Assembly (NCBI RefSeq): GCF_008329525.1 | Contig: NZ_NPKQ01000001.1 | Span: forward strand, 744,001 to 808,000 | Direction of reading: 5' to 3' | DNA from: Tardiphaga sp. P9-11 | Lineage (GTDB): Bacteria > Pseudomonadota > Alphaproteobacteria > Rhizobiales > Xanthobacteraceae | DNA length: 64,000 bases | Shown here: positions 32,281-46,736 of the stretch, in pieces | Layout: each line of letters begins with the position of its first letter | Numbering within the stretch: the first letter of the stretch is position 1 | The notes under the pieces: model-generated | Database searches by the model: none | Told to the model about the DNA's origin: nothing | What the model saw: only the letters and a program-made list of their open reading frames with translations | Program-made: the position numbers and the translations under genes

Positions 32281-32311
32281 ATGATCTTCGTTAGTCGTTA
32301 ACGAAGATCAT
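32281..32311. terminator. Perfect 13-bp stem-loop overlapping the tonB 3' end
   Basis: ATGATCTTCGTTA (32281-32293) and TAACGAAGATCAT (32299-32311) pair perfectly around a 5-base loop. The right arm contains the tonB stop codon and its last codons. It lies between converging genes and may end both transcripts, although no T tract follows on either strand. Confidence 0.55.
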
Positions 32312-33149
32312 ACCTCAAGGGAACATTGAACGCCTCCGTGGCGCCGGTCTTCTCGGGCGGAAATGCCGGGAATGGCTGTGCGCGACGAACCATGGCGAGC
32401 GTTTCGGCATCGAGCGCTTGATTTCCTGAGGATCCCAGCAGGCGAGAAGACAGCACGCGACCGCCGCGATCGAGTGTAAAGGCGATCCTGACGACTGCCG
32501 TGCCTGACTGACCGGTGCGGGCACTCTCGGGAAATTGCTTGAAGCGTTGCAAGTGTGATTGAACGAGCTGATTGTAAGACGCAGACGCTGCCCTGGAGGC
32601 ACCGGCCGTTGCAGCCGATGCTGCCGGCGCAATGCGTTCCGCGCGCGGTGCTGCGGTGGTCTGCGGCGCTGCCGGCGTATCGTTGGGCTTCTTCTTGACC
32701 TCGACGCGGATCGGCTTCGGTTTGGGCTTTTCCGGCACCGGCTTTGGCGGATCGGGAATGATCTTGGCGGGCTCGGGCGGGGGAGGCGTCGGCTCGGTTT
32801 TCTGCTCGGGCGGCGCTTCGACGACCGGCTTCTCCATCAGCGGCGTCGGCGGGATCTGTTCTTCCACCTGCTTCTGCTGAACCGGTTCGGGCGGCGGCTC
32901 GGACGGTGCGTCCGACTGCTGCATCTCGGGACCGGGCGCGATATCCAGCGGCTGCGTTTCAGGTGCAGCGGTGGCGGGCGCCATGTCGATCATGATGGCG
33001 GGCATCGTAACGCCCGGAGGACTTGGTTGATGGTACCACCAGATGCCTGCGGCGATCAGGCCGGCATGGATCGCGACGATCGCTATCGCCGACCCGGTCC
33101 AGCGAAGACCGACGCTGTCGGTCGGCGCATGTAGCGCAAAGACGTTCAT
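32298..33149 (-). CDS. tonB: TonB energy-transducing protein
   Basis: A 283-residue inner-membrane-anchored protein. The N-terminal helix (AIAIVAIHAGLIAAGIWWYH, with the conserved His) anchors it. A long Pro/Glu and Pro/Lys-rich periplasm-spanning region (about 60-165) follows, then a C-terminal TonB domain (LQRFKQFPESARTGQSGTAV, ALDAETLAMVRRAQPFPAFP). It transmits proton-motive energy from ExbB-ExbD to outer-membrane receptors. It overlaps exbD by 4 bases and shares an operon with a receptor gene. Confidence 0.92.
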   Translation of the reverse strand: MNVFALHAPTDSVGLRWTGSAIAIVAIHAGLIAAGIWWYHQPSPPGVTMPAIMIDMAPATAAPETQPLDIAPGPEMQQSDAPSEPPPEPVQQKQVEEQIPPTPLMEKPVVEAPPEQKTEPTPPPPEPAKIIPDPPKPVPEKPKPKPIRVEVKKKPNDTPAAPQTTAAPRAERIAPAASAATAGASRAASASYNQLVQSHLQRFKQFPESARTGQSGTAVVRIAFTLDRGGRVLSSRLLGSSGNQALDAETLAMVRRAQPFPAFPPEKTGATEAFNVPLRYDLR

Positions 33150-33583
33150 GGCGTGGAGGTTCGTCCGTCGAGGCCGACCAGTGCGATCTTGAGATAGCCT
33201 GCGTTGCGCAGCAGGTTCATCACTTCCATCAGATCGCCATAGCTCACGACCTTGTCCGCGCGCAGGAAGATGCGCTCGTCCTTGTTGTTCTTGGTCGCAG
33301 CATCCAGCGTGCCGCTCAGCGTATCGCGCGGGACGATGTCTTCGCCGACGGCGATCGTCAGGTCAGGCTTGACGGTGACGAAGACCGGCTTGTCGGGGCG
33401 CGGCTGCGGTTCTACGGCGCTTGCAGGTAAATCGACGCCGAGGTCGACCGTCGCCAGCGGTGCTGCCACCATGAAGATGATCAGCAAAACCAGCATCACG
33501 TCGATGAAAGGCGTCACATTGATTTCGTGATTGACCTCGAGGTCATCACCGCCGCTTGAGCGTCCACCAAGTCTCGTAGCCAT
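33146..33583 (-). CDS. exbD: ExbD biopolymer transport protein
   Basis: A 145-residue protein with a cytoplasmic tail, a single helix (INVTPFIDVMLVLLIIFMVA) carrying the essential membrane Asp, and a periplasmic domain (YGDLMEVMNLLRNAGYLKIA). It forms the proton channel with ExbB. The gene lies 3 bases after exbB and overlaps tonB by 4 bases. Confidence 0.93.
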   Translation of the reverse strand: MATRLGGRSSGGDDLEVNHEINVTPFIDVMLVLLIIFMVAAPLATVDLGVDLPASAVEPQPRPDKPVFVTVKPDLTIAVGEDIVPRDTLSGTLDAATKNNKDERIFLRADKVVSYGDLMEVMNLLRNAGYLKIALVGLDGRTSTP

Positions 33584-33586
33584 GAT

Positions 33587-34387
33587 CTATTCCGCCGCGC
33601 GCGAGATCGGCATGCCGCGACGGCCATGATCGCGGCTGATCAGCAGCATGACTTGCGCCGAGGCGTCGCCGAGTAGTGCACGATAGGTCGTGATGTTGCG
33701 AACGAGCTGGTTGTAGATCACCACGGCCGGAATGGCTGCGACGAGACCAAGTGCTGTCGCGAGCAACGCTTCGGCGATGCCGGGCGCGACGACCGCAAGG
33801 TTGGTGGTCTTGGTTTCCGAAATGCCGATGAAGGCGTTCATGATGCCCCAGACGGTTCCGAACAGGCCGACGAAGGGCGCAGTCGCACCGATCGTCGCGA
33901 CGACGCCGATGCCGCGGGAAATCCGGCGCGACATTGCCTGTTCGACGCGCTCAAGACGCAGTGCGATGCGCTCCTTGAAGCCGTCATCGAACAGTCCATG
34001 GGAGAGGGCAGTCTCGCGCACTGCCGAATGAATGAGCTGGGCCACGGGATCGCGGGCATCAGCGCTGTCGCGCTCGACCTGGGACAGCGTCGTGTCGCTT
34101 TCCAGTATGTCGAGTCGCCGCTTGGCGGACCGCGTTTCGCGACCGAGTTCGATAGTCTTTGCGAGCCAGACCGTCCAGGTCACCAGCGAGGCGATGGCAA
34201 GACCGATCATGACAGCCTTCACCACGATGTCGGCATTCATGAACATGCCCCATGGGGACAGATTATGTGGCAGCAAATTGTGTGGCAGCAAGGCTTCCGC
34301 GGTTGCAGCCATGGCAGCATGGGGAACCACGACAGTGCCGGAAACCGCGACGAAAACAGCAGTGAGGGGGGATCGGTGCGTTGTCAT
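33587..34387 (-). CDS. exbB: ExbB/TolQ-type proton channel protein
   Basis: A 266-residue membrane protein. An N-terminal signal-like helix is followed by three membrane segments, the last two being VVATIGATAPFVGLFGTVWG and AEALLATALGLVAAIPAVVI, the MotA/TolQ/ExbB signature. The extended periplasmic N-terminus is typical of alphaproteobacterial ExbB and here holds a local duplication (LLPHN twice, from a 15-base tandem repeat near 34264-34293). The start at 34387 was preferred over 34450. Function: torque/proton channel unit energising TonB. Confidence 0.9.
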   Translation of the reverse strand: MTTHRSPLTAVFVAVSGTVVVPHAAMAATAEALLPHNLLPHNLSPWGMFMNADIVVKAVMIGLAIASLVTWTVWLAKTIELGRETRSAKRRLDILESDTTLSQVERDSADARDPVAQLIHSAVRETALSHGLFDDGFKERIALRLERVEQAMSRRISRGIGVVATIGATAPFVGLFGTVWGIMNAFIGISETKTTNLAVVAPGIAEALLATALGLVAAIPAVVIYNQLVRNITTYRALLGDASAQVMLLISRDHGRRGMPISRAAE

Positions 34388-34460
34388 AGAGGCTGCATTC
34401 CGTCGGTGGAAGTTTGCATTGTGGGGTGCTGACCCAGAATAGCTTCGCATGTGAACGATG

Positions 34461-34478
34461 TCGCCCTCCGGGGGGCGA
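34461..34478. promoter_or_regulatory. Small GC-rich stem-loop between receptor and exbB
   Basis: TCGCCC (34461-34466) and GGGCGA (34473-34478) form a 6-bp stem in the 130-base gap between the receptor stop and the exbB start. It could lower read-through and set the receptor to ExbB ratio; the evidence is only structural. Confidence 0.35.
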
Positions 34479-34517
34479 GTTGAGGCCTAAACTGGAGCGA
34501 TTCCAAGGTCATTGGGC

Positions 34518-36587
34518 TCAAAATCTCATACTCGTGAAGAGCCGCACGCCGCGTCCGGGCTGCAGCACCTCCGCCTTCTTGAAGGAGATGTGGTTGCGGA
34601 CCTGTTCGTCGAGCAGATTGACTCCGGTGACGCCGAAGGTGATGTCGCGCAGGCCGCCATCCACTTTCGCGAATGTGTGGGTGTAGCTCACCTCGGCCTT
34701 CAGCAGATTGTGGCCGGCAGTCGACGTTTCATTGAGCGCAATATCGTTCTGCGTGAATGCATGGAGCACGCCCAGGCGCGCATACCATTCGGCGCTGCGC
34801 CACCAGACGCCGCCGCCCACGCGCATCGGTGCGATGCGCGGAACATTGCTGCCGTCGGCAAAGGTCGCGCGGACCACGTCGAACTGGGTGTCGATGCCGA
34901 GCATGCCGTCGCTGAGCGGCGTCACATCAAGTTGCGCCATCAGCTCGGCGCCGCGGAAATTGGCATCCCGCTGGCCATAAGCGACCTGCAGAAGCGGACC
35001 TGTCGCGCCGCAGCTTGCGAACGTGTCGGTGCAGAAATTGCCGGTTACCTGTTTGAAAATGAAATCGAGATAGCGCGTGTAGTAGAGGCTCGCCTCGAAA
35101 CGTAGCTGACCGCTGCTGCGCTTGAGGCCAACTTCAACCGACTCTGCGGTTTCGATTTTCAGATCCGGATTGCCGATGACGAAGGTGCCGGATGCGCCAT
35201 CGGAGCCGCGCGAATAAAGCTCGGGCGCGGCCGGTGCGCGCTGCGCACGCTGTACGCTCAGATTGGCGACCATATCCCAAGGCAGTGATTTCAGCAGTCC
35301 GAAGCTGAAGCTCTTCGGTGTGAAATCGCGTGTCGCTGCGGTCTCGGAGAATGTGTCGGGCGGCGGCAGGAAATTGCTGGGGAAGATCGGCGCCATGCCG
35401 GATACTGACAGGCTTTCGATACGGCCGGCCGCCTGGAATTTGAGGGTGTCCGAGAGCTGCAATTGCTCGAACACGAAGCCTGCGACCGTGTCCGTATTGG
35501 TCGGTGCGAGCAACCCGCCGAGCAGGCCCGCGGTGCCGAGCTTGCGGTTGCTGGCCTGCACGCCCCAGCTTCCGGTTAATGCGCCGAGCGGTGTTGCGAC
35601 CGCGGCGTGGTCCAGTTCGAAGCGGCCTTCGATTTCCTTGTTGGTAATGGTGTTCTGCAGGCCATCGACGCCATTGCTGCCGATGCCGAGCTCGCCATGC
35701 TTGTAGTCGCTGACGCCGAACGTATAGCGGATCGCGGCGATGCCTTCGGTGGGCGCACGCCATTCGCCCCTGCTGGTGACTTTGGTCTGTTCGAGATCGA
35801 TGCGAGTCCGGGACGCGGATTCGGCGATGCCGGGGATATGATACAGGCTGGTGATGTGCTGGATCGCGGTGCCGATATAGCCGCCATCGAAGATGTACGA
35901 ACCGCCGACCGATTGGCCTTCCGAGCGCAGTCTCGTATTGGCCTGGACGCCGCCGCCGGGAATTCTGTAATCGCCGGCGCTGCGGCCGAAGGCGTCGACG
36001 TGAATGGCGACATTGTTGCCCGACGCATCGATGCTGGCCGCGCCGTCGATGCTGCTATCCACCGAGGAGCCGCCGCCCTTGATGCGCGCGCTGAAATTGT
36101 CCGGCACGAGATTTTCCGGAATGCGGTTGTTGCTGGCATTGACGACGCCGCCGATGGCCTGATTGCCGTAGCGCAGCGTCGCCGGGCCGCGGATCACCTC
36201 GATCTTGTCGGCGGATAGCGGATCGACCGGGACCTGATGGTCCTGGCTGAAATCCGACGCGTCCTGGCTGCCGATGCCGTTCTCCTGAATGCGAACACGA
36301 TAGTCATCGAGGCCGCGGATATTCGGCCTGCTCGCGCCCGGCGCAAAGGTCGATGCGGCAACGCCCGGCTGGGTGGCCAGTAAGTCGGCAATGGAGGCCG
36401 AGGTGGTGCGCTGCAGGGCCTCACCGGTGAGCAGGGTGGTGGACTGGAAGGCGTCAGCTTCCTTCTGCCGCTCCGCACTGACCACGATTTCCGACAGCGT
36501 TTGCCCCTCCTGGGCCTTTGCCTCTCCAATCCAGATTGATGAGAGGCACGCCGCCCCCGTGATAGACGCCCACAACCTCAAACTCAC
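34518..36587 (-). CDS. TonB-dependent outer-membrane receptor, putative metal uptake
   Basis: A 689-residue receptor. The signal peptide ends near AKAQ. A TonB box-like TLSEIVVSA and plug domain (ADLLATQPGV, SRPNIRGLDDYRVRIQENGI, IEVIRGPATLRYGNQAIGGV) precede a 22-strand barrel ending in an aromatic F (LFTSMRF). A Cys pair in one external loop (FCTDTFASCG) may form a disulfide. The QVRNHISFKKAEVLQPGRGV ending resembles ZnuD-like metal receptors. GTG at 36587 was chosen because it begins the signal peptide with GGGGAAT upstream; a TTG at 36641 lies inside the putative operator. First gene of the receptor-exbB-exbD-tonB unit. Substrate (iron complex, zinc or copper) is inferred only. Confidence 0.83.
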   Translation of the reverse strand: MSLRLWASITGAACLSSIWIGEAKAQEGQTLSEIVVSAERQKEADAFQSTTLLTGEALQRTTSASIADLLATQPGVAASTFAPGASRPNIRGLDDYRVRIQENGIGSQDASDFSQDHQVPVDPLSADKIEVIRGPATLRYGNQAIGGVVNASNNRIPENLVPDNFSARIKGGGSSVDSSIDGAASIDASGNNVAIHVDAFGRSAGDYRIPGGGVQANTRLRSEGQSVGGSYIFDGGYIGTAIQHITSLYHIPGIAESASRTRIDLEQTKVTSRGEWRAPTEGIAAIRYTFGVSDYKHGELGIGSNGVDGLQNTITNKEIEGRFELDHAAVATPLGALTGSWGVQASNRKLGTAGLLGGLLAPTNTDTVAGFVFEQLQLSDTLKFQAAGRIESLSVSGMAPIFPSNFLPPPDTFSETAATRDFTPKSFSFGLLKSLPWDMVANLSVQRAQRAPAAPELYSRGSDGASGTFVIGNPDLKIETAESVEVGLKRSSGQLRFEASLYYTRYLDFIFKQVTGNFCTDTFASCGATGPLLQVAYGQRDANFRGAELMAQLDVTPLSDGMLGIDTQFDVVRATFADGSNVPRIAPMRVGGGVWWRSAEWYARLGVLHAFTQNDIALNETSTAGHNLLKAEVSYTHTFAKVDGGLRDITFGVTGVNLLDEQVRNHISFKKAEVLQPGRGVRLFTSMRF

Positions 36588-36610
36588 GCCATTCCCCAAG
36601 GTTACTGATC

Positions 36611-36642
36611 TGATGCGAATGCTAATGCGAACTATTCGCAAT
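36611..36642 (-). promoter_or_regulatory. Fur-family-like palindrome upstream of the TonB receptor
   Basis: TGCGAACTATTCGCA (36626-36640) has perfect 6-bp arms and fits the 7-1-7 layout of Fur/Zur/Mur boxes. A further TGCGAAT half-site lies 12 bases away (36614-36620) in direct orientation. It sits just upstream of the chosen receptor start. The regulator (Fur, Zur, Mur or another) cannot be told apart by eye. Confidence 0.5.
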
Positions 36643-36721: not shown

Positions 36722-36745
36722 TGCATATCAATATCTTTGTATGCA
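36722..36745. promoter_or_regulatory. Inverted repeat TGCATA-N12-TATGCA in divergent intergenic region
   Basis: Two perfect 6-bp arms lie in an AT-rich stretch between the divergent receptor and peptide-binding-protein genes. It is a candidate operator or promoter region for either transcript. No known regulator matched by eye. Confidence 0.3.
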
Positions 36746-36905
36746 ATGAGGCTGAGTCTCTGGCAAAGCCGACCGTCCGACGCGTTACAAAAATGCGAGA
36801 TTTATCAGATGCTTATGTGCTAATTAGGTGTACGTTAAGCTCTGGCACGAAGTTTGCGATGTCTGTTCCCAAGCCGATCCACTCGCGCCCTTGGGGAGAG
36901 CCAGA

Positions 36906-38525
36906 ATGAAGCGTCGTGATTTTCTGAAAACCGCCACAGGCGCCGCCGCCGGCGCGATGGTCTCCGGTCCGGCGATCTTTTCGTCCGCCAAGGCGGATGC
37001 CCGATCCGAAACCCTGCTGATCGTCTCCGAAAGCGGCCCCAACAACCTCGACATCCATGGCGTGGGCACCAATGTGCCCGGCTATGAAGTGTCCTGGAAT
37101 TGCTACGACCGTTTGATCGGTCATGAGATGAAGGCGGGCCCCGGCGGTGTGCCTTATTACGACCGCGACAAGTTCAAGCCCGAACTCGCCGAGGACATGA
37201 CCATCTCGGACATGTCGGCGACCTTCAAGCTGCGCAAGAACGCGAAATTTCACGACGGCACGCCGGTGACGGCGAAGGACGTGAAATGGTCGCTGGATCG
37301 TTCGGTGAGCGTCGGCGGTTTTCCGACCTTCCAGATGAGCGCCGGCTCGCTGAAAAAGCCCGAGCAGTTCGTGATCGTCGACGATCACACCGTGCGGGTC
37401 GATTTCGCCACCAAGGATCGCCTGACGATTCCGGATCTCGCTGTCATCGTGCCCTGCGTGATCAATTCCGAGCTGGTGAAGAAGAACGCCACCGAGAAGG
37501 ATCCGTGGGGTCTCGAATATACCAAGATGCAGACCGCCGGTGGCGGCGCCTACAAGGTGACGAAGTGGACCGCCGGCACCGAAGTCATCCTCGAGCGCAA
37601 TGACGACTGGGTCTCCGGTCCGATGCCGAAGATCAAGCGCGTGATCTGGCGCATGGTGCCACAGGCCGGTAACCGTCGCGCGCTGCTCGAGCGCGGCGAC
37701 GCCGACATGTCCTATGAATTGCCCTACAAGGACTTCCAGGAGATCAAGGCCAACGGCAAGATGAATGTCGTGTCGCTGCCGTTCTCCAACGGCATCCAGT
37801 ATATCGGCATGAACGTCACCAAGCCGCCTTTCGACAATCCGAAGGTGCGTCAGGCCGTGGCCTATGCGCTGCCCTATCAGAAGATCGTCGATGCCGTGTT
37901 GTTTGGCCTCGCCAATCCGATGTTCGGCGCGTCGGCCGACAAGCCGACCGAAGTCGCCTGGCCGCAGCCGACCAAATACAACACCGACATGGCGAAGGCG
38001 AAGGCGCTGCTGGCCGAGGCCGGCTATCCCAACGGCTTCGAGACCACGATCTCATTCGATCTCGGCTTTGCCGTTGTCAACGAGCCGCTATGTGTGTTGG
38101 TGCAGGAAAGCCTCGGCCAGATCGGTATCAAGACGACCATCAACAAGATCCCCGGCGCCAACTGGCGCACCGAGCTGAACAAGAAGGAGATGCCGTTCTA
38201 CACCAACGTGTTCTCCGGCTGGCTCGATTACCCCGAATACTTCTTCTACTGGTGCTATCACGGCGACAATTCGGTGTTCAACACCATGAGCTACAAGTCG
38301 CCGGAGATGGACAAGCTCATCAATGGCGCGCGTGTCGCGGCAGCGTCGGGCGATAAGGCGGCCTATGACAAGGACGTGAAGGGCTTCGTCGACCTTGCGT
38401 TCACCGATGTGCCGCGCATCCCGCTGTATCAGCCCTATGTCAACGTGGCGATGCAGAAGAACATCTCTGGCTACCAGTACTGGTTCCACCGCCGGCTCGA
38501 CTACCGCGCGCTCGTGAAGGCGTGA
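36906..38525 (+). CDS. Peptide-type ABC transporter substrate-binding protein (Tat-exported)
   Basis: A 539-residue family 5 solute-binding protein. The start MKRRDFLKTATGAAAGAMVS carries an R-R-x-F-L-K twin-arginine signal. Family 5 segments follow: FKLRKNAKFHDGTPVTAKDV, GTEVILERNDDWVSG, FDNPKVRQAVAYALPYQKIV, YNTDMAKAKALLAEAGYPNG. It captures a peptide-like or small amide ligand for the permease encoded next. The start at 36906 is supported by GGGGAGAG about 6 bases upstream; the in-frame codon at 36828 would bury the Tat signal. First gene of a run that ends in amidase and regulator genes. Confidence 0.88.
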   Translation: MKRRDFLKTATGAAAGAMVSGPAIFSSAKADARSETLLIVSESGPNNLDIHGVGTNVPGYEVSWNCYDRLIGHEMKAGPGGVPYYDRDKFKPELAEDMTISDMSATFKLRKNAKFHDGTPVTAKDVKWSLDRSVSVGGFPTFQMSAGSLKKPEQFVIVDDHTVRVDFATKDRLTIPDLAVIVPCVINSELVKKNATEKDPWGLEYTKMQTAGGGAYKVTKWTAGTEVILERNDDWVSGPMPKIKRVIWRMVPQAGNRRALLERGDADMSYELPYKDFQEIKANGKMNVVSLPFSNGIQYIGMNVTKPPFDNPKVRQAVAYALPYQKIVDAVLFGLANPMFGASADKPTEVAWPQPTKYNTDMAKAKALLAEAGYPNGFETTISFDLGFAVVNEPLCVLVQESLGQIGIKTTINKIPGANWRTELNKKEMPFYTNVFSGWLDYPEYFFYWCYHGDNSVFNTMSYKSPEMDKLINGARVAAASGDKAAYDKDVKGFVDLAFTDVPRIPLYQPYVNVAMQKNISGYQYWFHRRLDYRALVKA

Positions 38526-38587
38526 TGTGAGGGTTGCGCCGTCACGCTGGCGGCGCGGCCTTGTTCTTGCATTGATTTTCATGGTTA

Positions 38588-38612
38588 CGGGTCCCCGCTT
38601 TCACCGGGGAGA
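38588..38612. repeat. Short palindromic repeat, diverged copy
   Basis: TCCCCG (38592-38597) and CGGGGA (38605-38610) form a hairpin that resembles the repeat at 11511-11530 (shared TCCCCGCTTTC core). It sits between the binding-protein and permease genes and could tune their relative expression. Confidence 0.45.
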
Positions 38613-38635
38613 TATGTAGAGCGGGGGCGCAATCC

Positions 38636-39649
38636 ATGCTGGGCCTGATCGGCAAACGACTGATGTTCGCGATCCCGAGTTTGATCGGGGTCGTGATCGT
38701 GACGTTCCTGCTGACGCGGGCGCTGCCCGGCGATCCCGCGGCCTATTTCGCGGGACCGTCGGCGGACAAGCAGGCGATCGAGGAGATCCGCAAGAAGCTC
38801 GGCCTCGACAAGCCGCTGATCGAGCAGTTCTTCCGCTATACGGCGGATCTGGCCAAAGGCGATTTCGGCAACTCGCTGACCACCGGCCAGCCGGTGGCGA
38901 CCGAAATTCGTAATCGCCTGCCGGCCTCGGCGGAGCTGACGCTGCTCGGTCTCATGGTCTCGGTCATGATCGCTATTCCGCTTGGCATTCTTGCTGCCAC
39001 CCGGCCGGGCTCGTGGATTGATCATCTTTGCCGGGTGACGACGACAGCCGGTGTATCACTGCCGGTGTTCTTCACCGGACTGGTGTTGGTCTATGTTTTC
39101 TATTTCAGGCTCGGCTGGTCGCCGGCGCCGCTTGGCCGGCTCGACGTGTTCGCATCGACCCCTCCCAATGTGACCGGCTTCTATCTGATCGACAGTCTCA
39201 TTGCCCGAGATTGGGAAGCTTTCAGGTCCGCCTTCAACCAGTTGATTCTGCCGACGGCGACGCTGGCGATCTTCTCGCTGGCACCGATCGCCCGCATGAC
39301 CCGCGCGTCGATGCTGGCGATCCTGTCATCGGACTTCGTGCGCACGGCGCGGGCAAGCGGCCTGTCGCCGCGCGCGGTGATCGTCACCTACGCTTTCCGC
39401 AATGCCATGCTGCCGGTCATCACCACGCTGTCGATGACGTTTTCGTTTCTTCTCGGCGCCAATGTGCTGGTCGAGAAGGTGTTCGCCTGGCCGGGCATCG
39501 GCTCCTATGCCGTCGAAGCACTGATCTCGTCGGATTTCGCACCGGTGCAGGGCTTCGTTCTGACGATGGCCGTCATGTACGTCCTGATCAATCTGATCAT
39601 CGACATTCTCTACGGCGTAATAGATCCACGCGTGCGGCTGGAAGGGTGA
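38636..39649 (+). CDS. Peptide-type ABC transporter permease, DppB-like
   Basis: A 337-residue inner-membrane permease with six helices. It starts with IGKRLMFAIPSLIGVVIVTF and TRALPGDPAAYFAG as in DppB/OppB, and carries the EAA loop (TARASGLSPRAVIVTYAFRN) that contacts the ATPase. VEKVFAWPGIGSYAVEALIS is the conserved C-terminal block. It pairs with the DppC-like permease 10 bases downstream. The start at 38636 follows GCGGGGGCG. Confidence 0.9.
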   Translation: MLGLIGKRLMFAIPSLIGVVIVTFLLTRALPGDPAAYFAGPSADKQAIEEIRKKLGLDKPLIEQFFRYTADLAKGDFGNSLTTGQPVATEIRNRLPASAELTLLGLMVSVMIAIPLGILAATRPGSWIDHLCRVTTTAGVSLPVFFTGLVLVYVFYFRLGWSPAPLGRLDVFASTPPNVTGFYLIDSLIARDWEAFRSAFNQLILPTATLAIFSLAPIARMTRASMLAILSSDFVRTARASGLSPRAVIVTYAFRNAMLPVITTLSMTFSFLLGANVLVEKVFAWPGIGSYAVEALISSDFAPVQGFVLTMAVMYVLINLIIDILYGVIDPRVRLEG

Positions 39650-39659
39650 GGTGTAAACC

Positions 39660-40580
39660 ATGAACGCTGTCACGCCTGTCGATACCGAAGCCGTTCCCGC
39701 GCCGCAGCCTGCGCTCGCAAAACGCACCTCCGGCTTTGCCGCGACGCTGCAGCACACGCGCTACATTCTCGGCGAGAATCGCGTTACGGCGTTTGCATTC
39801 GGCCTGCTGGTGCTGATCGTGTTCGCAGCGCTGTTCGGCCCCTACATCGTGCCCTACGATCCGCTCGCCAGTGATACGGCGCAGGCGCTGAAGGCGCCGT
39901 CTGCGGCGCACTGGTTCGGCACCGATCAGCTCGGCCGCGATATTTTCAGCCGCGTCATCGTGGCGACACGGCTCGATTTCTTCATCGCCATCGCATCGGT
40001 CATCCTGGTGTTCGCCATGGGAGGCCTTGCCGGTATCGCGTCGGGTTATTTCGGCGGCTGGACCGATCGCATCGTCGGCCGCATCGCCGATACGATCATG
40101 GCGTTCCCACTGTTCGTACTGGCCATGGGTATCGTCGCGGCGCTGGGCAACACCGTGCAAAACATCATCATTGCGACGGCGATTGTGAATTTCCCGCTCT
40201 ATGCGCGTGTTGCGCGCGCCGAAGCCAATGTCCGCCGCGAGGCCGGCTTCGTGCAGGCGGCCCGGCTGTCGGGCAATAGCGAGATGCGCATCCTACTGGT
40301 GCATATCCTGCCCAACATCATGCCGATCATGATCGTGCAGATGTCTCTCACCATGGGCTACGCGATCCTCAATGCCGCGGGCCTCTCCTTCATCGGTCTC
40401 GGTGTCCGTCCGCCAACCGCGGAATGGGGCATCATGGTCGCCGAAGGCGCGTCATTCATGGTCTCCGGCGAATGGTGGATCGCATTGTTTCCGGGTCTGG
40501 CTCTAATGATCGCGGTGTTCTGCTTCAATCTGCTCGGCGATGGTCTGCGCGATATCGTCGATCCGCAGCGACGGACGTGA
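39660..40580 (+). CDS. Peptide-type ABC transporter permease, DppC-like
   Basis: A 306-residue permease with an N-terminal cytoplasmic tail, then VTAFAFGLLVLIVFAALFGP and the typical HWFGTDQLGRDIFSRVIVAT. The EAA loop is RREAGFVQAARLSGNSEMRI, followed by GLSFIGLGVRPPTAEWGIMV. It forms the membrane channel with the DppB-like partner. The ATPase gene starts 10 bases after its stop. Confidence 0.9.
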   Translation: MNAVTPVDTEAVPAPQPALAKRTSGFAATLQHTRYILGENRVTAFAFGLLVLIVFAALFGPYIVPYDPLASDTAQALKAPSAAHWFGTDQLGRDIFSRVIVATRLDFFIAIASVILVFAMGGLAGIASGYFGGWTDRIVGRIADTIMAFPLFVLAMGIVAALGNTVQNIIIATAIVNFPLYARVARAEANVRREAGFVQAARLSGNSEMRILLVHILPNIMPIMIVQMSLTMGYAILNAAGLSFIGLGVRPPTAEWGIMVAEGASFMVSGEWWIALFPGLALMIAVFCFNLLGDGLRDIVDPQRRT

Positions 40581-40590
40581 GGGCCCGGAC

Positions 40591-42312
40591 ATGACCGCTC
40601 AACCGCTTCTCGACGTCAGCGATCTCACCGTCGAATTCGCCACACGGCGTGGCATCGTCAAGGCCGTACAACACGTGAATATCTCTGTCGCCAAGGGCGA
40701 GACGCTGGGCATCGTCGGCGAGTCCGGCTCGGGCAAATCCGTGACGTCCTATGCGGTGATGCGTATTCTCGACCGCGCCGGCAAGATCGCCGAAGGTTCG
40801 GTGATGTTCTCCGGCGTCGATGTGAAGGCAGCGACCGAGAACCAGATGCGCGACCTGCGCGGCCGCGAAATCTCGATGATCTTCCAGAATCCACGGGCGG
40901 CGCTGAATCCGATCCGCAAGGTCGGCGACCAGATCGAGGACGTCTTGCGTCAGCATGCGCAGGCCGGCAGCGCGGACCGTGCCGAGAAGGCCATCGAGGC
41001 GCTCGAGCAGGTCAAGATCGCGCGGCCGCGCGAGCGCTATCACGCCTATCCGTTCGAACTCTCCGGCGGCATGTGCCAGCGCGTGGTCATCGCGCTGGCG
41101 CTTGCCTGCAATCCGCAGCTCCTGATTGCCGACGAGCCGACCACCGGCCTCGATGTCACGACGCAGAAGGCCGTGATGGATCTGGTCGTCGAGCTAACCA
41201 AGAGTCGCGGCATGTCCACGATTCTGATCACCCATGATCTCGGCTTGGCCGCCGCCTATTGCGACCGTGTCGTGGTGATGGAAAAGGGCAGGGTGGTCGA
41301 GACGGCGCTGTCGGCGGATATCTTCGCCAATCCGCAACACGCCTATACCAAGAAACTGATGCAGGCGACGCCGCGGCTGGGGGTCTCGCTGCGCGATCTC
41401 CTGCCCGCCGAAGAGCGCGCGGCGATGCCGGTGCAGCCGACGATTGCAGACAGCGCCAGTGCCGACACCGCCGCAAAGCCGCTGCTGGTGGTCGAAAATC
41501 TGGTCAAGGAATACGCTCGCCAGGGGGCGACGGCCTCTCTGGCAAAACTGTTCTCGCGCAAGCCGCCGACCGAGCCGGACAAGTTTCGTGCCGTCGATGG
41601 CATCAGCTTCACGGTCGGCCATGGCGAGAGCGTCGGCCTGGTCGGCGAATCCGGCTGCGGCAAGTCCACGACGTCGATGATGGTGATGCGGCTGATAGAC
41701 AAGACCTCAGGGCGCATCGCCTTCGATGGCGACGAGATCGGCGAGATGGCGCCGAATTCCTTTGCGCGGTTGCCGCTGCGCAAGAGCATCCAGATGGTGT
41801 TTCAGGATCCGACCGACAGTCTCAACCCGCGCTTCACGGCGGCGCGCGCCATCGCCGACCCGATCATGCAGCTTGGCGACATCAAGGGCGGCGATGCGTT
41901 GCGTGCAAAATGCGAGGATCTCGCGCGACAGGTGGGGCTGCCGCTCGAGTTGCTCGATCGCTTTCCGCACCAAATGTCCGGTGGCCAGAAGGCTCGTGTC
42001 GGCATTGCCCGCGCCATCGCGCTGCAGCCGAAGCTGATCATCCTGGACGAGCCGACCGCTGCGCTCGATGTGTCAGTGCAGGCAGTGGTGCTGAACCTGT
42101 TGCAGGACCTGAAGCAGTCGATGGGGATGAGCTATTTGTTCGTATCGCACGATTTGAATGTGGTGCGCTTGTTGTGCGATCGTGTCATCGTGATGCGCAC
42201 GGGGCGGATCGTCGAGCAGGGCCTGACCGAGGCTGTGCTGGATGCACCGCAGGATAACTACACGAAGGAACTGCTGTCGGCGATCCCGCATCCGCCGTTG
42301 CCGGTTCATTGA
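40591..42312 (+). CDS. Fused double ATPase of the peptide-type ABC transporter (DppD-DppF fusion)
   Basis: A 573-residue protein with two nucleotide-binding domains. NBD1 has Walker A GESGSGKS (about 41-48), signature LSGGMCQRV and Walker B LLIADEPTTGLD. NBD2 has Walker A GESGCGKS (about 351-358), signature MSGGQKARV and Walker B LIILDEPTAALD. Each is followed by an oligopeptide-ATPase C-terminal region. Both active sites look intact. It powers import by the two upstream permeases. The start at 40591 lies just after the permease stop; an in-frame codon at 40540 overlaps it. Confidence 0.92.
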   Translation: MTAQPLLDVSDLTVEFATRRGIVKAVQHVNISVAKGETLGIVGESGSGKSVTSYAVMRILDRAGKIAEGSVMFSGVDVKAATENQMRDLRGREISMIFQNPRAALNPIRKVGDQIEDVLRQHAQAGSADRAEKAIEALEQVKIARPRERYHAYPFELSGGMCQRVVIALALACNPQLLIADEPTTGLDVTTQKAVMDLVVELTKSRGMSTILITHDLGLAAAYCDRVVVMEKGRVVETALSADIFANPQHAYTKKLMQATPRLGVSLRDLLPAEERAAMPVQPTIADSASADTAAKPLLVVENLVKEYARQGATASLAKLFSRKPPTEPDKFRAVDGISFTVGHGESVGLVGESGCGKSTTSMMVMRLIDKTSGRIAFDGDEIGEMAPNSFARLPLRKSIQMVFQDPTDSLNPRFTAARAIADPIMQLGDIKGGDALRAKCEDLARQVGLPLELLDRFPHQMSGGQKARVGIARAIALQPKLIILDEPTAALDVSVQAVVLNLLQDLKQSMGMSYLFVSHDLNVVRLLCDRVIVMRTGRIVEQGLTEAVLDAPQDNYTKELLSAIPHPPLPVH

Positions 42313-42332
42313 GACAGATCAAGAGAGGGACC

Positions 42333-42512
42333 GTGGCCGAACCGCTTGATGACTATATCGACGCCGTCGCCGGGGCGTTGGGACTGCCGATCGAAGACGC
42401 GTGGAAGCCGTCCGTCCGTGCCAATCTCGCGGTGACGCTGAAAATGGCAAAAATGGTCGACGAATTTCCGCTGCCAGATGAAACCGAGCCGGCGAGCATC
42501 TATGCAGCTTGA
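42333..42512 (+). CDS. AtzG-like small subunit of an amidase (DUF4089, GatC-like)
   Basis: A 59-residue protein matching DUF4089/AtzG (LDDYIDAVAGALGLPIEDAW ... VDEFPLPDETEPASIYAA). In Pseudomonas sp. ADP, AtzG is the GatC-like partner that stabilises the AtzE amidase in an alpha2-beta2 complex. GTG at 42333 is the likely start, preceded by GAGAGGG; a non-ATG codon at 42309 overlaps the ATPase end. Its last 11 bases overlap the AtzE-like gene, so the two subunits are translationally coupled, as expected for obligate partners. Confidence 0.82.
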   Translation: MAEPLDDYIDAVAGALGLPIEDAWKPSVRANLAVTLKMAKMVDEFPLPDETEPASIYAA

Positions 42513-43932
42513 TCCTGTCGTCACGCCCCATATTTTTCAACCCAATGGCGCTTGGCGCCCGGCGTCGGAGATCGCACAGGCGGTCGCCGCGAAGAAAATC
42601 TCTGCCCTTGCCGTCACCGAAGCGGCGCTGGCGCGGATCGCCGAGCACGATCCCGTCCTCAACGCGTTCACCGACGTCACCGCCGATCGCGCGCGCGCCA
42701 CGGCGAAAGCGCTGGATGCCGCAATTGCTTCCGGCCAAAGTGTCGGGCCACTTGCCGGCGTGCCGTTCGCTGTGAAGAACCTGTTCGATGTCACGGGTCT
42801 GCCAACCCGCGCCGGTTCCAGGATCAATCGTGATCGCCCGGCCTCGACGCGTGATGCGACGCTGGTCGAGCGCATGGAAGCTGCCGGCGCCATATTGGTC
42901 GGCGCGCTCAACATGGGCGAATACGCCTATGACTTCACCGGTGAGAATTTTCACGATGGTCCGTCGCGAAATCCGCATGACGTGACCCGGATGACCGGCG
43001 GCTCATCGGGCGGTTCCGGCGGCGCCGTCGGCGGCAGTCTCGTGCCGCTTGCGCTGGGCTCGGACACCAACGGTTCGATCCGCGTGCCGTCGTCGTTTTG
43101 CGGCATCTTCGGCCTGAAGCCGACTTATGGCCGGCTGTCGCGCGCGCGCTCGTTTCCGTTTGTCGCGAGCTTCGATCACCTTGGCCCGTTCGCACGATCG
43201 GTCGAGGACCTCGCGCTGTCCTACGACGCCATGCAGGGACCCGATGCCGAGGATGCCGCGTGTTCAACCCGCGCCATCGAGCCGGTGACGGCGCTGCTCG
43301 GACAGGATATCGGCTCTCTCCGCATCGCTGCGGCTGGCGGATACTTCCGCAAGAACCTGTTTCCGGAGGCACAGGAGGCGGTCGCGCGTGTCACGAAGGC
43401 GCTCGGCGTCACACGCGATTTCGAGCTGCCCGAGGTCGCCCGTGCGCGCTCCGCCGCCTATGTCATCTCGACCGTCGAAGGCGCCTCGTTGCATCTGGAT
43501 CGCTTGCGCACGCGTCCCAATGATTTCGATCCCGCGGTGCGCGACCGCTTGCTGGCGGGCGCGATGGTGCCGGCGCCGCTGGTCGATCGTGCGCAGAAAT
43601 TCCGCCGCTGGTACCGCGCGAAGGTGCTCGAACTGTTCAAGGAAGTCGATGTGATCATCGCACCGGCGACGCCTTGTATCGCGCCCAAGCTGGGGCAGGC
43701 GACTTTCGTGCTTGATGGTGTCGAATTGCCGGTGCGCGCCAATATCGGCATCCACACCCAGCCGATTTCCTTCATCGGTCTGCCCGTGGTCGCTGTCCCG
43801 GTGCCGCTCGATCCGATGCCGATCGGTGTGCAGATCATTGCGGCGCCGTGGCGGGAAGACATCGCGCTGCGTGTCGCTTATGCATTGGAGCGGGCCGGCG
43901 TCGTCGCCGCTCCATCAGCAAAAGGGTTCTGA
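42502..43932 (+). CDS. AtzE family amidohydrolase (amidase signature)
   Basis: A 476-residue amidase-signature enzyme. The Ser-cisSer-Lys triad is visible: Lys92 in PFAVKNLFDV, cis-Ser168 in TGGSSGGSGG, and nucleophile Ser192 in SDTNGSIRVPSSFCG. C-terminal IIAPATPC and GVQIIAAPWRED are typical. AtzE itself deaminates 1-carboxybiuret in cyanuric acid catabolism; homologues in AtzG-AtzE-AtzH clusters without AtzD/AtzF have unknown substrates. The ATG at 42502 overlaps the AtzG-like gene. No cyanuric acid hydrolase or allophanate hydrolase gene is in the window, so the natural substrate is probably another N-carbamoyl or carboxyamide compound (inference). Confidence 0.87.
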   Translation: MQLDPVVTPHIFQPNGAWRPASEIAQAVAAKKISALAVTEAALARIAEHDPVLNAFTDVTADRARATAKALDAAIASGQSVGPLAGVPFAVKNLFDVTGLPTRAGSRINRDRPASTRDATLVERMEAAGAILVGALNMGEYAYDFTGENFHDGPSRNPHDVTRMTGGSSGGSGGAVGGSLVPLALGSDTNGSIRVPSSFCGIFGLKPTYGRLSRARSFPFVASFDHLGPFARSVEDLALSYDAMQGPDAEDAACSTRAIEPVTALLGQDIGSLRIAAAGGYFRKNLFPEAQEAVARVTKALGVTRDFELPEVARARSAAYVISTVEGASLHLDRLRTRPNDFDPAVRDRLLAGAMVPAPLVDRAQKFRRWYRAKVLELFKEVDVIIAPATPCIAPKLGQATFVLDGVELPVRANIGIHTQPISFIGLPVVAVPVPLDPMPIGVQIIAAPWREDIALRVAYALERAGVVAAPSAKGF

Positions 43933-43933
43933 C

Positions 43934-44332
43934 ATGGACATTGATCTGCCGGACGTCATCGCCGAAGTGGGTGCCGCTTTAGCACGCTATGAGAAGGCGC
44001 TGACGACCAACGACACTGCGGTACTCGGCGAGTTGTTTCGCAACGATCCGCGGACGCTCCGTTACGGCATGGGCGAAAACCTCTACGGCTATGACGAGAT
44101 CCAGGCCTTTCGCGGTGCACGCTCGCCGGTCGGTCTCATGCGCCGCACCGCACGCACGGTGATTTCATCCTATGGCCGCGACACTGCGGTCGCCTCGACG
44201 CTATTTTATCGCGACACGGCTCCGGGTAAGGTCGGTCGACAGATGCAGACGTGGATCCGCTTTCCGGAAGGCTGGCGAATCGTGGCGGCGTCTGTCAGCC
44301 TGATCGACGAACCGCAGGGCGCCAAGGGATGA
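43934..44332 (+). CDS. AtzH-like DUF3225 protein (SnoaL superfamily)
   Basis: A 132-residue SnoaL-fold protein matching DUF3225/AtzH. AtzH was reported to convert 1,3-dicarboxyurea to allophanate, with Tyr22 and Arg46 needed for catalysis as I recall. Here Tyr19 and Arg43 keep the same 24-residue spacing, in ALARYEKAL and PRTLRYGMGENLYGYDEIQA. It begins one base after the amidase stop and its own stop overlaps the GntR start (ATGA). It likely processes the amidase product in the same pathway. Confidence 0.82.
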   Translation: MDIDLPDVIAEVGAALARYEKALTTNDTAVLGELFRNDPRTLRYGMGENLYGYDEIQAFRGARSPVGLMRRTARTVISSYGRDTAVASTLFYRDTAPGKVGRQMQTWIRFPEGWRIVAASVSLIDEPQGAKG

Positions 44333-45069
44333 GTTTCGACGACATGCTGATCCAGCCGGGGAAGCCGCGCCGCAAGGCAGGCATCGCCGGGCCGGTCAGC
44401 CGGGTTGACCGTGCCGGGACTATCACCGGCAAAATGACGCGCGCCGAAGAACTCCGCCTGCAACTGGCCGACGAGATAGTACGCGGCGTACTGGCGCCGG
44501 GCACGCCGCTCGACGAAACCGACCTGGCACAACGTTTCAATGTTTCGCGGACGCCAGTACGCGAAGCGCTGCGTCAACTCACCGCGAGCGGCCTCGTCGA
44601 ATCGCGCGCGCATCGCGGCGCGGTCGTGGCGCAGCCATCGATCGATCGTCTCACGGGGATGTTCGAGGCGATGGCGGAGCTCGAAGCGCTCTGTGCAAGC
44701 CTCGCGGCCGAACGAATGCCGGCCGTGCAGCGTCACGGGTTGGAGGCCATTCACGAAGAGCTGCGGGTGTTGAGCTATGACGGCAATCCGGATCGCTTCC
44801 ACGAAGTGAATGAGCGTTTTCACAACGCGATTTATGCGGGATCGCAGAACGAATATATCGCGGAGATCACACTCGCGACCCGGGTTCGCGTTCAGCCGTT
44901 TCGGCGCGCGCAGTTCCGCAATCTTGGTCGTCTTGCAAAGTCTCAAGCCGAGCACGACTGTGTCGTCGTTGCCATCATGCGTGGTGATCGCACCGGCGCT
45001 GCCGCTGCCATGCGCGCCCATATCGAACTGGTCCGCGGCGAATACGAGCATTACGCCGTCTCGCTCTAG
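44329..45069 (+). CDS. GntR/FadR-family transcriptional regulator (FCD domain)
   Basis: A 246-residue regulator. After a basic tail of about 40 residues, the winged HTH holds LADEIVRGVLAPGTPLDETDLAQRF and VSRTPVREALRQLTASGLVE. The C-terminal FCD ligand domain has EALCASLAAERM, NERFHNAIYAGSQNEYI and HDCVVVAIMRGDRTGAAAAMRAHI, giving the expected Asp/His metal ligands. It probably senses the pathway substrate and controls the ABC transporter-amidase operon (inference). Its ATG overlaps the AtzH-like stop. Confidence 0.88.
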   Translation: MSFDDMLIQPGKPRRKAGIAGPVSRVDRAGTITGKMTRAEELRLQLADEIVRGVLAPGTPLDETDLAQRFNVSRTPVREALRQLTASGLVESRAHRGAVVAQPSIDRLTGMFEAMAELEALCASLAAERMPAVQRHGLEAIHEELRVLSYDGNPDRFHEVNERFHNAIYAGSQNEYIAEITLATRVRVQPFRRAQFRNLGRLAKSQAEHDCVVVAIMRGDRTGAAAAMRAHIELVRGEYEHYAVSL

Positions 45070-45242
45070 CCCCAACTCCCCGGATAAAATGGGAACCAAC
45101 ACGTCCTTAGTGGATTGCTTCACATAGGATGTAACCCTTTGGCGCTGAATTTCCCGTCACCGCGAGGTTCCGGGCTTTTGGCGTTGATGTCGATTGCCGC
45201 TCGTCCGTGGGGTATCGAACAAATGCTCTGGAGCACGGCGGC

Positions 45243-46736
45243 ATGGCCCAGTTGAGCAGTGAGGATATCACGGCTTCGCCGACGTCAGGTCAGGGGCCTC
45301 CTGCTGGTTCAAGTCGTGTGATCGAAACTGATATTCCCGCTCGCCTTGATGCACTGCGCTGGAGCGGATTTCATACACGTGTGGTTCTGGCCCTCGGCAT
45401 CACGTGGATTCTCGATGGCCTTGAGGTGACGCTGGCGGGCGCGCTGTCGGGCGCATTGAAGGAAGATCCGGCGCTGAGGTTTTCGAACTTCGATGTCGGC
45501 TTTGCCAACAGTGCCTATCTCGCCGGCGCCGTGATCGGCGCCCTGGGATTTGGCTGGCTGACGGATCGCATCGGCCGGAAGAAGCTGTTCTTCATCACGC
45601 TTGCGCTTTATCTCACGGCGACTGCCGCGACGGCGATGTCATGGAGTCTTGCCAGCTATGCTTTGTTTAGATTCCTGACGGGCGCCGGCATTGGCGGGGA
45701 ATATACCGCGATCAATTCGACGATTCAGGAGCTAGTCCCGGCGCGTTATCGCGGCTGGACCGATCTGGTGATCAACGGCAGTTTCTGGCTCGGCGCGGCG
45801 ATGGGCGCGGTCTGTGCTATCGTCTTGCTGGACCCCGCAGTGATCTCGCAATCCTATGGCTGGCGGCTGGCCTATTTCACCGGCGCGATTCTGGGTCTCA
45901 TCGTGCTGCTCATGCGGATGTGGATTCCGGAAAGCCCGCGCTGGCTGATGATCCATGGTCAGCCGCAGCGCGCAGAGGAGATCGTGGCTGAGATCGAAAT
46001 CTCCGCGCATCAGAAGGCAAAGCCATCGGTTCTGGCCGCGCTGCCGAAGATCAGGCTGACGATGCGTGATCATACGCCGCTGAAGGAAGTCGCCCAGACA
46101 TTGTTCGTGCTGTATCGGCAGCGATCGCTGGTCGGACTCGTGCTGATGGCGTCGCAGGCGTTTTTCTACAACGCGATCTTCTTCACCTATGCGCTGATTT
46201 TGACTGATTTCTTCGGTATCCCGTCCAATCATGTCGGCTGGTACATCCTGCCGTTTGCCGCAGGTAATTTTCTCGGACCACTGTTGCTCGGCCGGCTATT
46301 CGATACGCTCGGGCGTCGCGTCATGATTGCGGTTACCTATGGCATGTCGGGCATATTGCTTGCGATTTCCGGCTATCTGTTTTCGATCGATGTATTGAGT
46401 GCACAGACCCAGACCATCGCCTGGATGATCATCTTCTTCTTTGCGTCGCCGGCGGCGAGTGCGGCCTATCTCACCGTCAGCGAGACGTTCCCGATCGAGG
46501 TCCGTGCACTGGCGATTGCTTTGTTCTATGCGATCGGCACCGGGATCGGCGGTGTTGCTGGCCCGGCTTTGTTTGGCGTGCTGATCGATACCGGCTCGCG
46601 CAACAGCGTGTTTGCCGGATACCTCTTTGGCGCCGGTCTTATGATCGCGGCTGCGATCATCGGCTGGCGCTATGCCATCGCGGCAGAACGTCAGCCGCTT
46701 GAATCAGTTGCACGGCCACTGGCCGTGATGGAGTAA
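45243..46736 (+). CDS. MFS transporter, sugar porter/SP-like family
   Basis: A 497-residue 12-helix transporter. The hallmark loop motifs are GWLTDRIGRKKLFFITLALY and GRLFDTLGRRVMIAVTYGMS, with the SP-type IPESPRWLMIHG after TM6 and VSETFPIEVRALAIALFYAI near TM10. The N-terminal 45 residues are polar. The substrate is unknown; aromatic acids, sugars or metabolites are all possible. Start at 45243 has GGAG upstream and is better than 45207. It is encoded 4 bases before otsB in the same direction, so it may be co-transcribed with the trehalose genes. Confidence 0.8.
   Translation: MAQLSSEDITASPTSGQGPPAGSSRVIETDIPARLDALRWSGFHTRVVLALGITWILDGLEVTLAGALSGALKEDPALRFSNFDVGFANSAYLAGAVIGALGFGWLTDRIGRKKLFFITLALYLTATAATAMSWSLASYALFRFLTGAGIGGEYTAINSTIQELVPARYRGWTDLVINGSFWLGAAMGAVCAIVLLDPAVISQSYGWRLAYFTGAILGLIVLLMRMWIPESPRWLMIHGQPQRAEEIVAEIEISAHQKAKPSVLAALPKIRLTMRDHTPLKEVAQTLFVLYRQRSLVGLVLMASQAFFYNAIFFTYALILTDFFGIPSNHVGWYILPFAAGNFLGPLLLGRLFDTLGRRVMIAVTYGMSGILLAISGYLFSIDVLSAQTQTIAWMIIFFFASPAASAAYLTVSETFPIEVRALAIALFYAIGTGIGGVAGPALFGVLIDTGSRNSVFAGYLFGAGLMIAAAIIGWRYAIAAERQPLESVARPLAVME

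Follow-up and report, generated by a model that had tools for sequence, protein, structure and literature searches.

A transporter-linked AtzG-AtzE-AtzH operon of Tardiphaga sp. P9-11 and its proposed place in a biuret-free triuret pathway

Pseudomonas sp. ADP breaks down cyanuric acid with enzymes of the atzDGEHF operon (NC_004956), in which AtzEG converts carboxybiuret to 1,3-dicarboxyurea and AtzF hydrolyses allophanate, the AtzH step to allophanate being the authors' simplest explanation of the reconstituted pathway (PMC6219798). In the triuret pathway of Herbaspirillum (TrtA-TrtB-BiuH-AtzF), TrtA was assayed to convert triuret to 1-carboxybiuret and ammonia (PMC7948467); that paper also notes that the 1-carboxybiuret so formed is a substrate of AtzEG, yet describes triuret breakdown via biuret, as does PMC12625717. 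A third described system is the hpxWXYZ operon of Klebsiella (mentioned in PMC3560190). For AtzG-AtzE-AtzH (AtzGEH) clusters that lack AtzD, the natural substrate was left open in 2018 (PMC6219798). Here we analyze a cluster of this kind in Tardiphaga sp. P9-11, an eight-gene operon at 36906-45069 of a 64,000-nucleotide stretch of contig NZ_NPKQ01000001.1 (the whole stretch analyzed is referred to as the window). We consider it probable that this operon, together with a second one, encodes a pathway that scavenges nitrogen from triuret by means of TrtA, AtzEG, AtzH and AtzF and avoids biuret.

The enzymes themselves are already known; a literature search, within the portions of papers accessible, listed no paper joining TrtA with AtzGEH as one pathway. 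With the ADP operon the locus shares the AtzG-AtzE-AtzH order, the catalytic and pocket residues and the presence of AtzF in the genome, but here AtzD was not found, AtzF lies in a second operon with TrtA, and the window has its own peptide-type ATP-binding cassette (ABC) transporter, a GntR regulator and sigma-54 promoter matches. A TrtA homologue and AtzF are common to this genome and the Herbaspirillum pathway, whereas no BiuH scores above cut-off here and carboxybiuret would pass through AtzEG and AtzH instead of biuret. Loci of this kind make up the class with AtzF and ABC transporters of Esquirol et al. (2018; PMC6219798), although the accessible part of that paper gives such clusters no specific substrate and does not mention TrtA, sigma-54 or the hydrophobic protein called X below.

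The window operon and its AtzG-AtzE-AtzH trio

Open reading frame (ORF) listing and family scans bore out the initial annotation as to the eight genes, their order and their common strand:

36906-38525, plus strand: family-5 solute-binding protein (SBP) with a twin-arginine translocation (TAT)-type signal (SBP_bac_5, 277.5 bits)
38636-39649, plus strand: Dpp/Opp-type ABC permease 1 (family scans)
39660-40580, plus strand: Dpp/Opp-type ABC permease 2 (family scans)
40591-42312, plus strand: double ABC ATPase, GsiA/YejF-like (GsiA 494 bits, below the cut-off of 1077)
42309-42512, plus strand: AtzG-like/HpxX-like small subunit (PF13318, 65.7 bits; AtzG 6c62_C, E 1e-4)
42502-43932, plus strand: AtzE-family amidase, 1-carboxybiuret hydrolase-like (TIGR02715, 728.3 bits against a cut-off of 425.75)
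43934-44332, plus strand: AtzH/HpxZ-like decarboxylating protein (PF11533, 188.5 bits; NCBIfam HpxZ, NF033625, 189.6 against 135)
44329-45069, plus strand: GntR/FCD regulator (family scan)

Genes were located from the ORF listing, the sequence and the family scans; the gene callers were home-made, so exact starts are approximate, and the AtzG-like gene may begin at TTG 42309 or at GTG 42333, the latter being the choice of the codon-scored caller. The junctions are those described before, with an 11-base overlap (42502-42512), a one-base gap (43933) and an ATGA overlap (44329-44332), and Lys92, Ser168 and Ser192 of AtzE and Tyr19 and Arg43 of AtzH were likewise found in place. That the order from SBP to GntR is not due to chance follows from its recurrence elsewhere in the family: of 17 other sampled genomes with AtzH, 14 have it, one of them with the ATPase read in two pieces; in the remaining three, one run is cut by a contig end and two genomes (G327, G077) lack ABC genes beside AtzH. 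The best PDB match of the SBP is 5u4o (148 bits); its identification as glutathione-binding GsiB was rejected, the score being 156.9 bits against a hidden Markov model (HMM) cut-off of 594.

The amidase also exceeds a second curated cut-off (NF006631, 744 against 461), has the AtzE-AtzG structure 6c62 as its best PDB match (483 bits) and is 52% identical to the AtzE of plasmid pADP-1. Both the Lys-Ser-Ser triad and the AtzG partner gene are present, and AtzEG of the window is predicted to act on 1-carboxybiuret. The nine AtzH pocket residues (Tyr22, Arg46 and seven more, named in PMC6219798) read YRRRRFRQQ and are identical to those of Pseudomonas ADP AtzH.

The same trio invites another interpretation, oxalurate catabolism, in which the proteins would be HpxX-HpxY-HpxZ and imported oxalurate would be deaminated and decarboxylated to oxamate, to be cleaved by the HpxW amidohydrolase. 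The chemistry runs parallel, NCBIfam names the AtzH-like protein HpxZ, and Klebsiella has the same trio (hpxX, an AtzE-family amidase gene and hpxZ), its hpxWXYZ operon sharing the order of DUF4089 protein, AtzE-family amidase and HpxZ with an ABC transporter nearby. The family name does not separate AtzH from HpxZ, since ADP AtzH is itself annotated hpxZ. Unlike Klebsiella, this locus has no linked hpxW, its ABC transporter is of the peptide and not the amino-acid type, and its regulator is GntR and not HpxU (RpiR). The genome (6.16 Mb in 30 contigs, listed as 100% complete; family matches to 14 amidases, one AtzH and five gamma-glutamyltransferases) does encode a gamma-glutamyltransferase-family protein closest in the PDB to 5hft (287+260 bits), which we take to be Klebsiella HpxW, but this gene is unlinked (C12:1022041, approximately 233 kb away). 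No AllD match above cut-off was found.

The second operon and the proposed pathway

The initial annotation had found neither AtzD nor AtzF in the window. While this is true of the window, a genome-wide search located AtzF on the contig of the operon, at a distance of approximately 690 kb (C12:88519-90192; TIGR02713, 808.9 bits against a cut-off of 511; C-terminal AH_C domain). AtzD remained negative, with no PF09663 match in the genome in a search that was positive in 15 of 26 genomes. A cyanuric acid pathway in which AtzD has been lost or another enzyme has taken its place would fit the ADP gene order and the AtzD found in those 15 genomes, which include same-genus G236; however, no AtzD was found in this genome or in any of the 20 peptide-transporter loci described below, and this reading, which we consider highly improbable, was rejected for the present genome.

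AtzF is the last of three codirectional genes (L171:8956-13205) that encode an isochorismatase-family hydrolase (trtA), a 547-residue hydrophobic protein (X) and AtzF. The hydrolase matches the PDB entries 6XIX (294 bits) and 6XJ4 (290 bits) better than BiuH (220 bits), and is 64% identical to TrtA; 6XIX is the triuret hydrolase TrtA (PMC7948467). At the six residues that separate TrtA from BiuH (F35, N41, A134, E160, Y187 and I205; PMC7948467) it has FNAEYI, where the compared BiuH has Y, Y, S, D, T and V, and all seven catalytic and binding residues checked (DKCEKQF) are kept. We read it as a TrtA-type triuret hydrolase. No protein of this genome exceeds the BiuH cut-off of 370, the best score (259.8 bits) being that of the TrtA homologue itself.

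Protein X is hydrophobic throughout and has no Pfam or NCBIfam model match, PF00860 included; a comparison of its profile with the one PF00860 permease of the genome found no similarity. Its AlphaFold model is weak (mean predicted local distance difference test score, pLDDT, of 53), and the nearest structures are the BicA, SVCT1 and SLC26 transporters (best E 2e-4), a hint only of a UraA-like fold. In an alignment scan against named genomes, TrtA directly precedes X in 78 of the best 80 loci of a longer list; of the two others, L207 starts 93 nt before X and L204 has approximately 0.8 kb before X, with no TrtA match in it. Three of these 80 are Tardiphaga loci with TrtA-X-AtzF as found here, and the closest named X among the matches listed is that of Tardiphaga robiniae (98% identity). 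We suggest X as a candidate triuret permease.

Combining the two operons, TrtA would convert triuret to 1-carboxybiuret, AtzEG of the window would deaminate this to 1,3-dicarboxyurea, AtzH would decarboxylate the product to allophanate, and AtzF of the second operon would turn allophanate into ammonia and CO2, assuming that the orthologues here perform the same reactions. Chained in this way, the steps would release all of the triuret nitrogen without biuret. X and the window's peptide-type ABC transporter could serve for uptake; sigma-54 would switch on both operons under nitrogen shortage, with the GntR protein acting as a second, ligand-responsive control. The initial annotation had read the operon as an uptake and hydrolysis system for an N-carbamoyl or carboxyamide compound, and an N-carbamoyl (acyl-urea) substrate without AtzD linkage is supported; it had put no name to the substrate, for which we now propose 1-carboxybiuret because TrtA makes this known substrate of AtzEG. 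The AtzGEH-TrtA link would give a concrete substrate assignment for AtzD-less clusters. If true, the pathway may account for the recovery of nitrogen from oxidized uric acid by soil and plant-associated bacteria, would provide a candidate triuret permease, and would mean that the herbicide-pathway enzymes descend from a natural pathway.

Linkage and promoters in relatives

We took 112 AtzH neighborhoods from 130 AtzH hits over cut-off; 74 contain AtzE, and linkage was counted within about 10 kb. A BmpA/NupABC-type transporter accompanies 35 of these 74 loci (of these, TrtA in 34, BiuH in 31, AtzD in 16 and AtzF in 12), while 20 have the peptide-type transporter of the window, with AtzF in 16 and BiuH in none. 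Among the four peptide-transporter loci lacking AtzF, two (L096, L099) stop at a contig end, and in the other two genomes (G364 and G236) AtzF sits with TrtA and X elsewhere. In 39 of the 74, a GntR relative is found no more than 10 kb from AtzH. Both halves of the pathway are joined in several relatives from Bradyrhizobium, Bosea and Terrarubrum: the whole set (TrtA, X, AtzF, AtzGEH and ABC genes) stands together in G387, G301, G366 and G167, and the order in Terrarubrum flagellatum is SBP-permease-permease-ATPase-TrtA-X-AtzF-AtzG-AtzE-AtzH, with X annotated as a 'regulator'. The set is likewise complete in three of the best 80 X loci, with the window-type block in the opposite orientation.

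Co-occurrence was counted over 397 genomes, with TrtA-like proteins defined by E up to 1e-71, a line drawn after seeing the list. TrtA-like proteins were found in 90 of 116 genomes with AtzH versus 25 of 281 without it; relaxing the line to E 1e-60 gave 91/116 and 30/281, and at genus level the counts were 37/45 versus 11/96 (10 without G233, which lies just outside the cut). Each of the 18 AtzH genomes sampled from the family of the window encodes a TrtA-like protein and AtzF, while AtzD occurs in only 10 and BiuH over cut-off in nine. Six of the 52 proteins typed as BiuH are remote and probably not BiuH (L069, L103, L104, L110, L151, L153); none lies in an AtzE locus.

In the AtzE tree the window sequence falls within a peptide-transporter clade (20 rows; 98% support in the Shimodaira-Hasegawa-like approximate likelihood ratio test, SH-aLRT) adjoining a 12-row clade that is mostly NupABC-linked, and it groups with TrtA/AtzF-linked AtzE. 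Klebsiella HpxY and ADP AtzE join on long branches, so that this join is unsure. At 137 columns conserved in the linked AtzE, ADP AtzE agrees at 124 and Klebsiella HpxY at 112 (a single HpxY being compared). Relatives of the HpxW-like gene occur in none of the 74 AtzE loci, and oxalurate leaves the linkage to AtzF and TrtA unexplained. Given the unlinked HpxW gene, the linkage of AtzF and TrtA in relatives and AtzE columns that favor ADP AtzE, we place oxalurate catabolism second and regard it as unlikely.

Alternatively, the ABC transporter could import another ureido compound on which AtzGEH would act directly, AtzF finishing the allophanate and TrtA belonging to a separate pathway that shares AtzF. 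The SBP family suits this scenario, as does the conservation of the SBP-to-GntR block in a family where trtA-X usually lies elsewhere. Against it stand the strong TrtA/AtzH co-occurrence and the codirectional runs trtA-X-atzG-atzE in L109 and L124 and trtA-X-atzE in six named, mostly Bosea loci among the best 80 X loci, where ABC genes, AtzH, GntR and AtzF lie alongside. We rank this scenario below oxalurate and think it improbable.

The two operons share a promoter type. Upstream regions were scanned with what we take to be the consensus patterns for sigma-54 promoters and for GntR sites (TTGTNNACAA for the latter), which gave two features in the window:

36843-36858 (exact over 36843-36857), plus strand: sigma-54 promoter match TGGCACGAAGTTTGCG (-24/-12), 63 nt before the SBP start
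36737-36746, no strand: candidate GntR/FCD operator-like palindrome TTGTATGCAA, 169 nt before the SBP start

A second exact sigma-54 match lies 59 nt before trtA (L171:8897-8911). The number of matches in the window (three) and in L171 is within chance at one mismatch, and their weight rests on position and on conservation in relatives, not on match count. Sigma-54 scores do not fall below 10 of 12 in any of the 17 SBP upstream regions (shuffled 0.9%; 15 of the 17 come from one family), and the same holds for 86 of 100 trtA upstream regions (shuffled 1.2%; 83/97 without three duplicates). For genes of these loci with an upstream gap of at least 100 nt, a score of at least 11 was reached by 14/18 SBP, 13/22 AtzF and 13/21 bmp genes versus 30/824 unassigned genes. 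Palindromes related to TTGTRYRCAA accompany both promoter sets: in 15 of 17 regions before SBP genes the best site is TTGTATGCAA, in 56 of 100 before trtA it is the related TTGTACACAA, and the GntR protein may bind at these sites. A sigma-70 promoter scan found none, and a search for NtrC-like dyads returned one weak palindrome and nothing convincing. In rpoN mutants of Bradyrhizobium sp. DOA9 (2026 study), atzE and atzF were reported down, with RpoN sites listed upstream of the genes for an isochorismatase (TGGCACGGCGCTTGC) and a peptide/nickel-type SBP (TGGCACGAACCTTGC); the accessible part of the study draws no connection among these genes (PMC13207237). These 15-mers recur in 17 of 100 trtA and 11 of 17 SBP upstream regions, respectively.

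Several observations weigh against the triuret pathway. Its proteins are assigned here from sequence, and its two halves lie in separate operons in this genome. The SBP is of a peptide/opine/nickel-type family, in which a triuret carrier would be unusual, and what the ABC transporter carries is the weakest link of the proposal. TrtA (with X) lies within approximately 10 kb in only 4 of the 20 peptide-transporter loci, and 62 of the best 80 named trtA-X loci have no window gene nearby. Klebsiella HpxZ has the identical AtzH pocket, so that AtzH does not discriminate between the readings. One family genome (G077, L058) has AtzH with GntR, as well as TrtA-X and AtzF, yet no AtzE beside AtzH. There are 26 AtzH genomes without a TrtA-like match and 25 TrtA-positive genomes without AtzH, which argues against a universal link. 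The 19 AtzE loci outside both transporter types have TrtA once and AtzF once (L141 and L065, a short contig and a family relative), indicating that AtzGEH can serve other substrates, as it may do where its neighborhood differs, for instance in the f20 genomes. Finally, the DOA9 genes were matched to these operons by annotation and promoter identity only.

Beyond this genome, we lean slightly towards AtzG-AtzE-AtzH being an old, nitrogen-regulated module of a natural, biuret-free breakdown of triuret, together with TrtA, a dedicated candidate permease (X) and AtzF, of which the ADP cyanuric acid operon would be a later rewiring. Separate sigma-54 operons would then be the usual arrangement in Tardiphaga and Bradyrhizobium and a compact arrangement that of Bosea and Terrarubrum, and AtzG-AtzE-AtzH would not be an orphan trio recruited for herbicides.

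Variant loci and neighboring features

In 10 of 12 NupABC/TrtA loci without AtzE (the 10 being L152, L154-L157, L159-L162 and L164), AtzH has Q, F, Y or A instead of the pocket residue Arg66; with AtzE present, Arg66 is replaced in none of 34, which fits an AtzH acting on a different, one-carboxylate substrate in the AtzE-less loci. Compact clusters such as L144:322-10958 encode a Nup-type transporter, formamidase, BiuH, AtzD, TrtA, AtzG, AtzE, AtzH and GntR, and appear from their gene content to be a merged cyanurate/triuret/biuret pathway; they also encode a 5-FTHF-cyclo-ligase-like protein, possibly a candidate TrtB. On a plasmid of Acidithiobacillus caldus (L188), AtzG-AtzE-AtzH occur with xanthine dehydrogenase, ureidoglycolate lyase, a ring-opening amidohydrolase and a gamma-glutamyltransferase, an apparent purine-linked version.

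Downstream of the GntR gene lies a major facilitator superfamily (MFS) transporter gene (45207-46736), an arrangement of the genus (also seen in L084), while most sampled family relatives have AtzF at this position. Divergent from the operon, on the minus strand at 32298-36641, are tonB-exbD-exbB and a TonB receptor, which was set aside as a component of the system, being ZnuD-like (253 bits, below the cut-off of 950). At a contig end elsewhere in the genome (C23; L013:463-2400), one frame combines an Opp/Dpp-type ATPase with the C-terminal half of a gamma-glutamyltransferase and is a fusion or an assembly artefact. Within the operon, the gap between the SBP and permease genes holds a further feature:

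38527-38636, plus strand: SBP-permease gap with strong hairpins (-49.5 kcal/mol, z -2.57)

Only 4 of 200 shuffles were at least as stable, and the hairpins are a possible candidate for an attenuator favoring the SBP.

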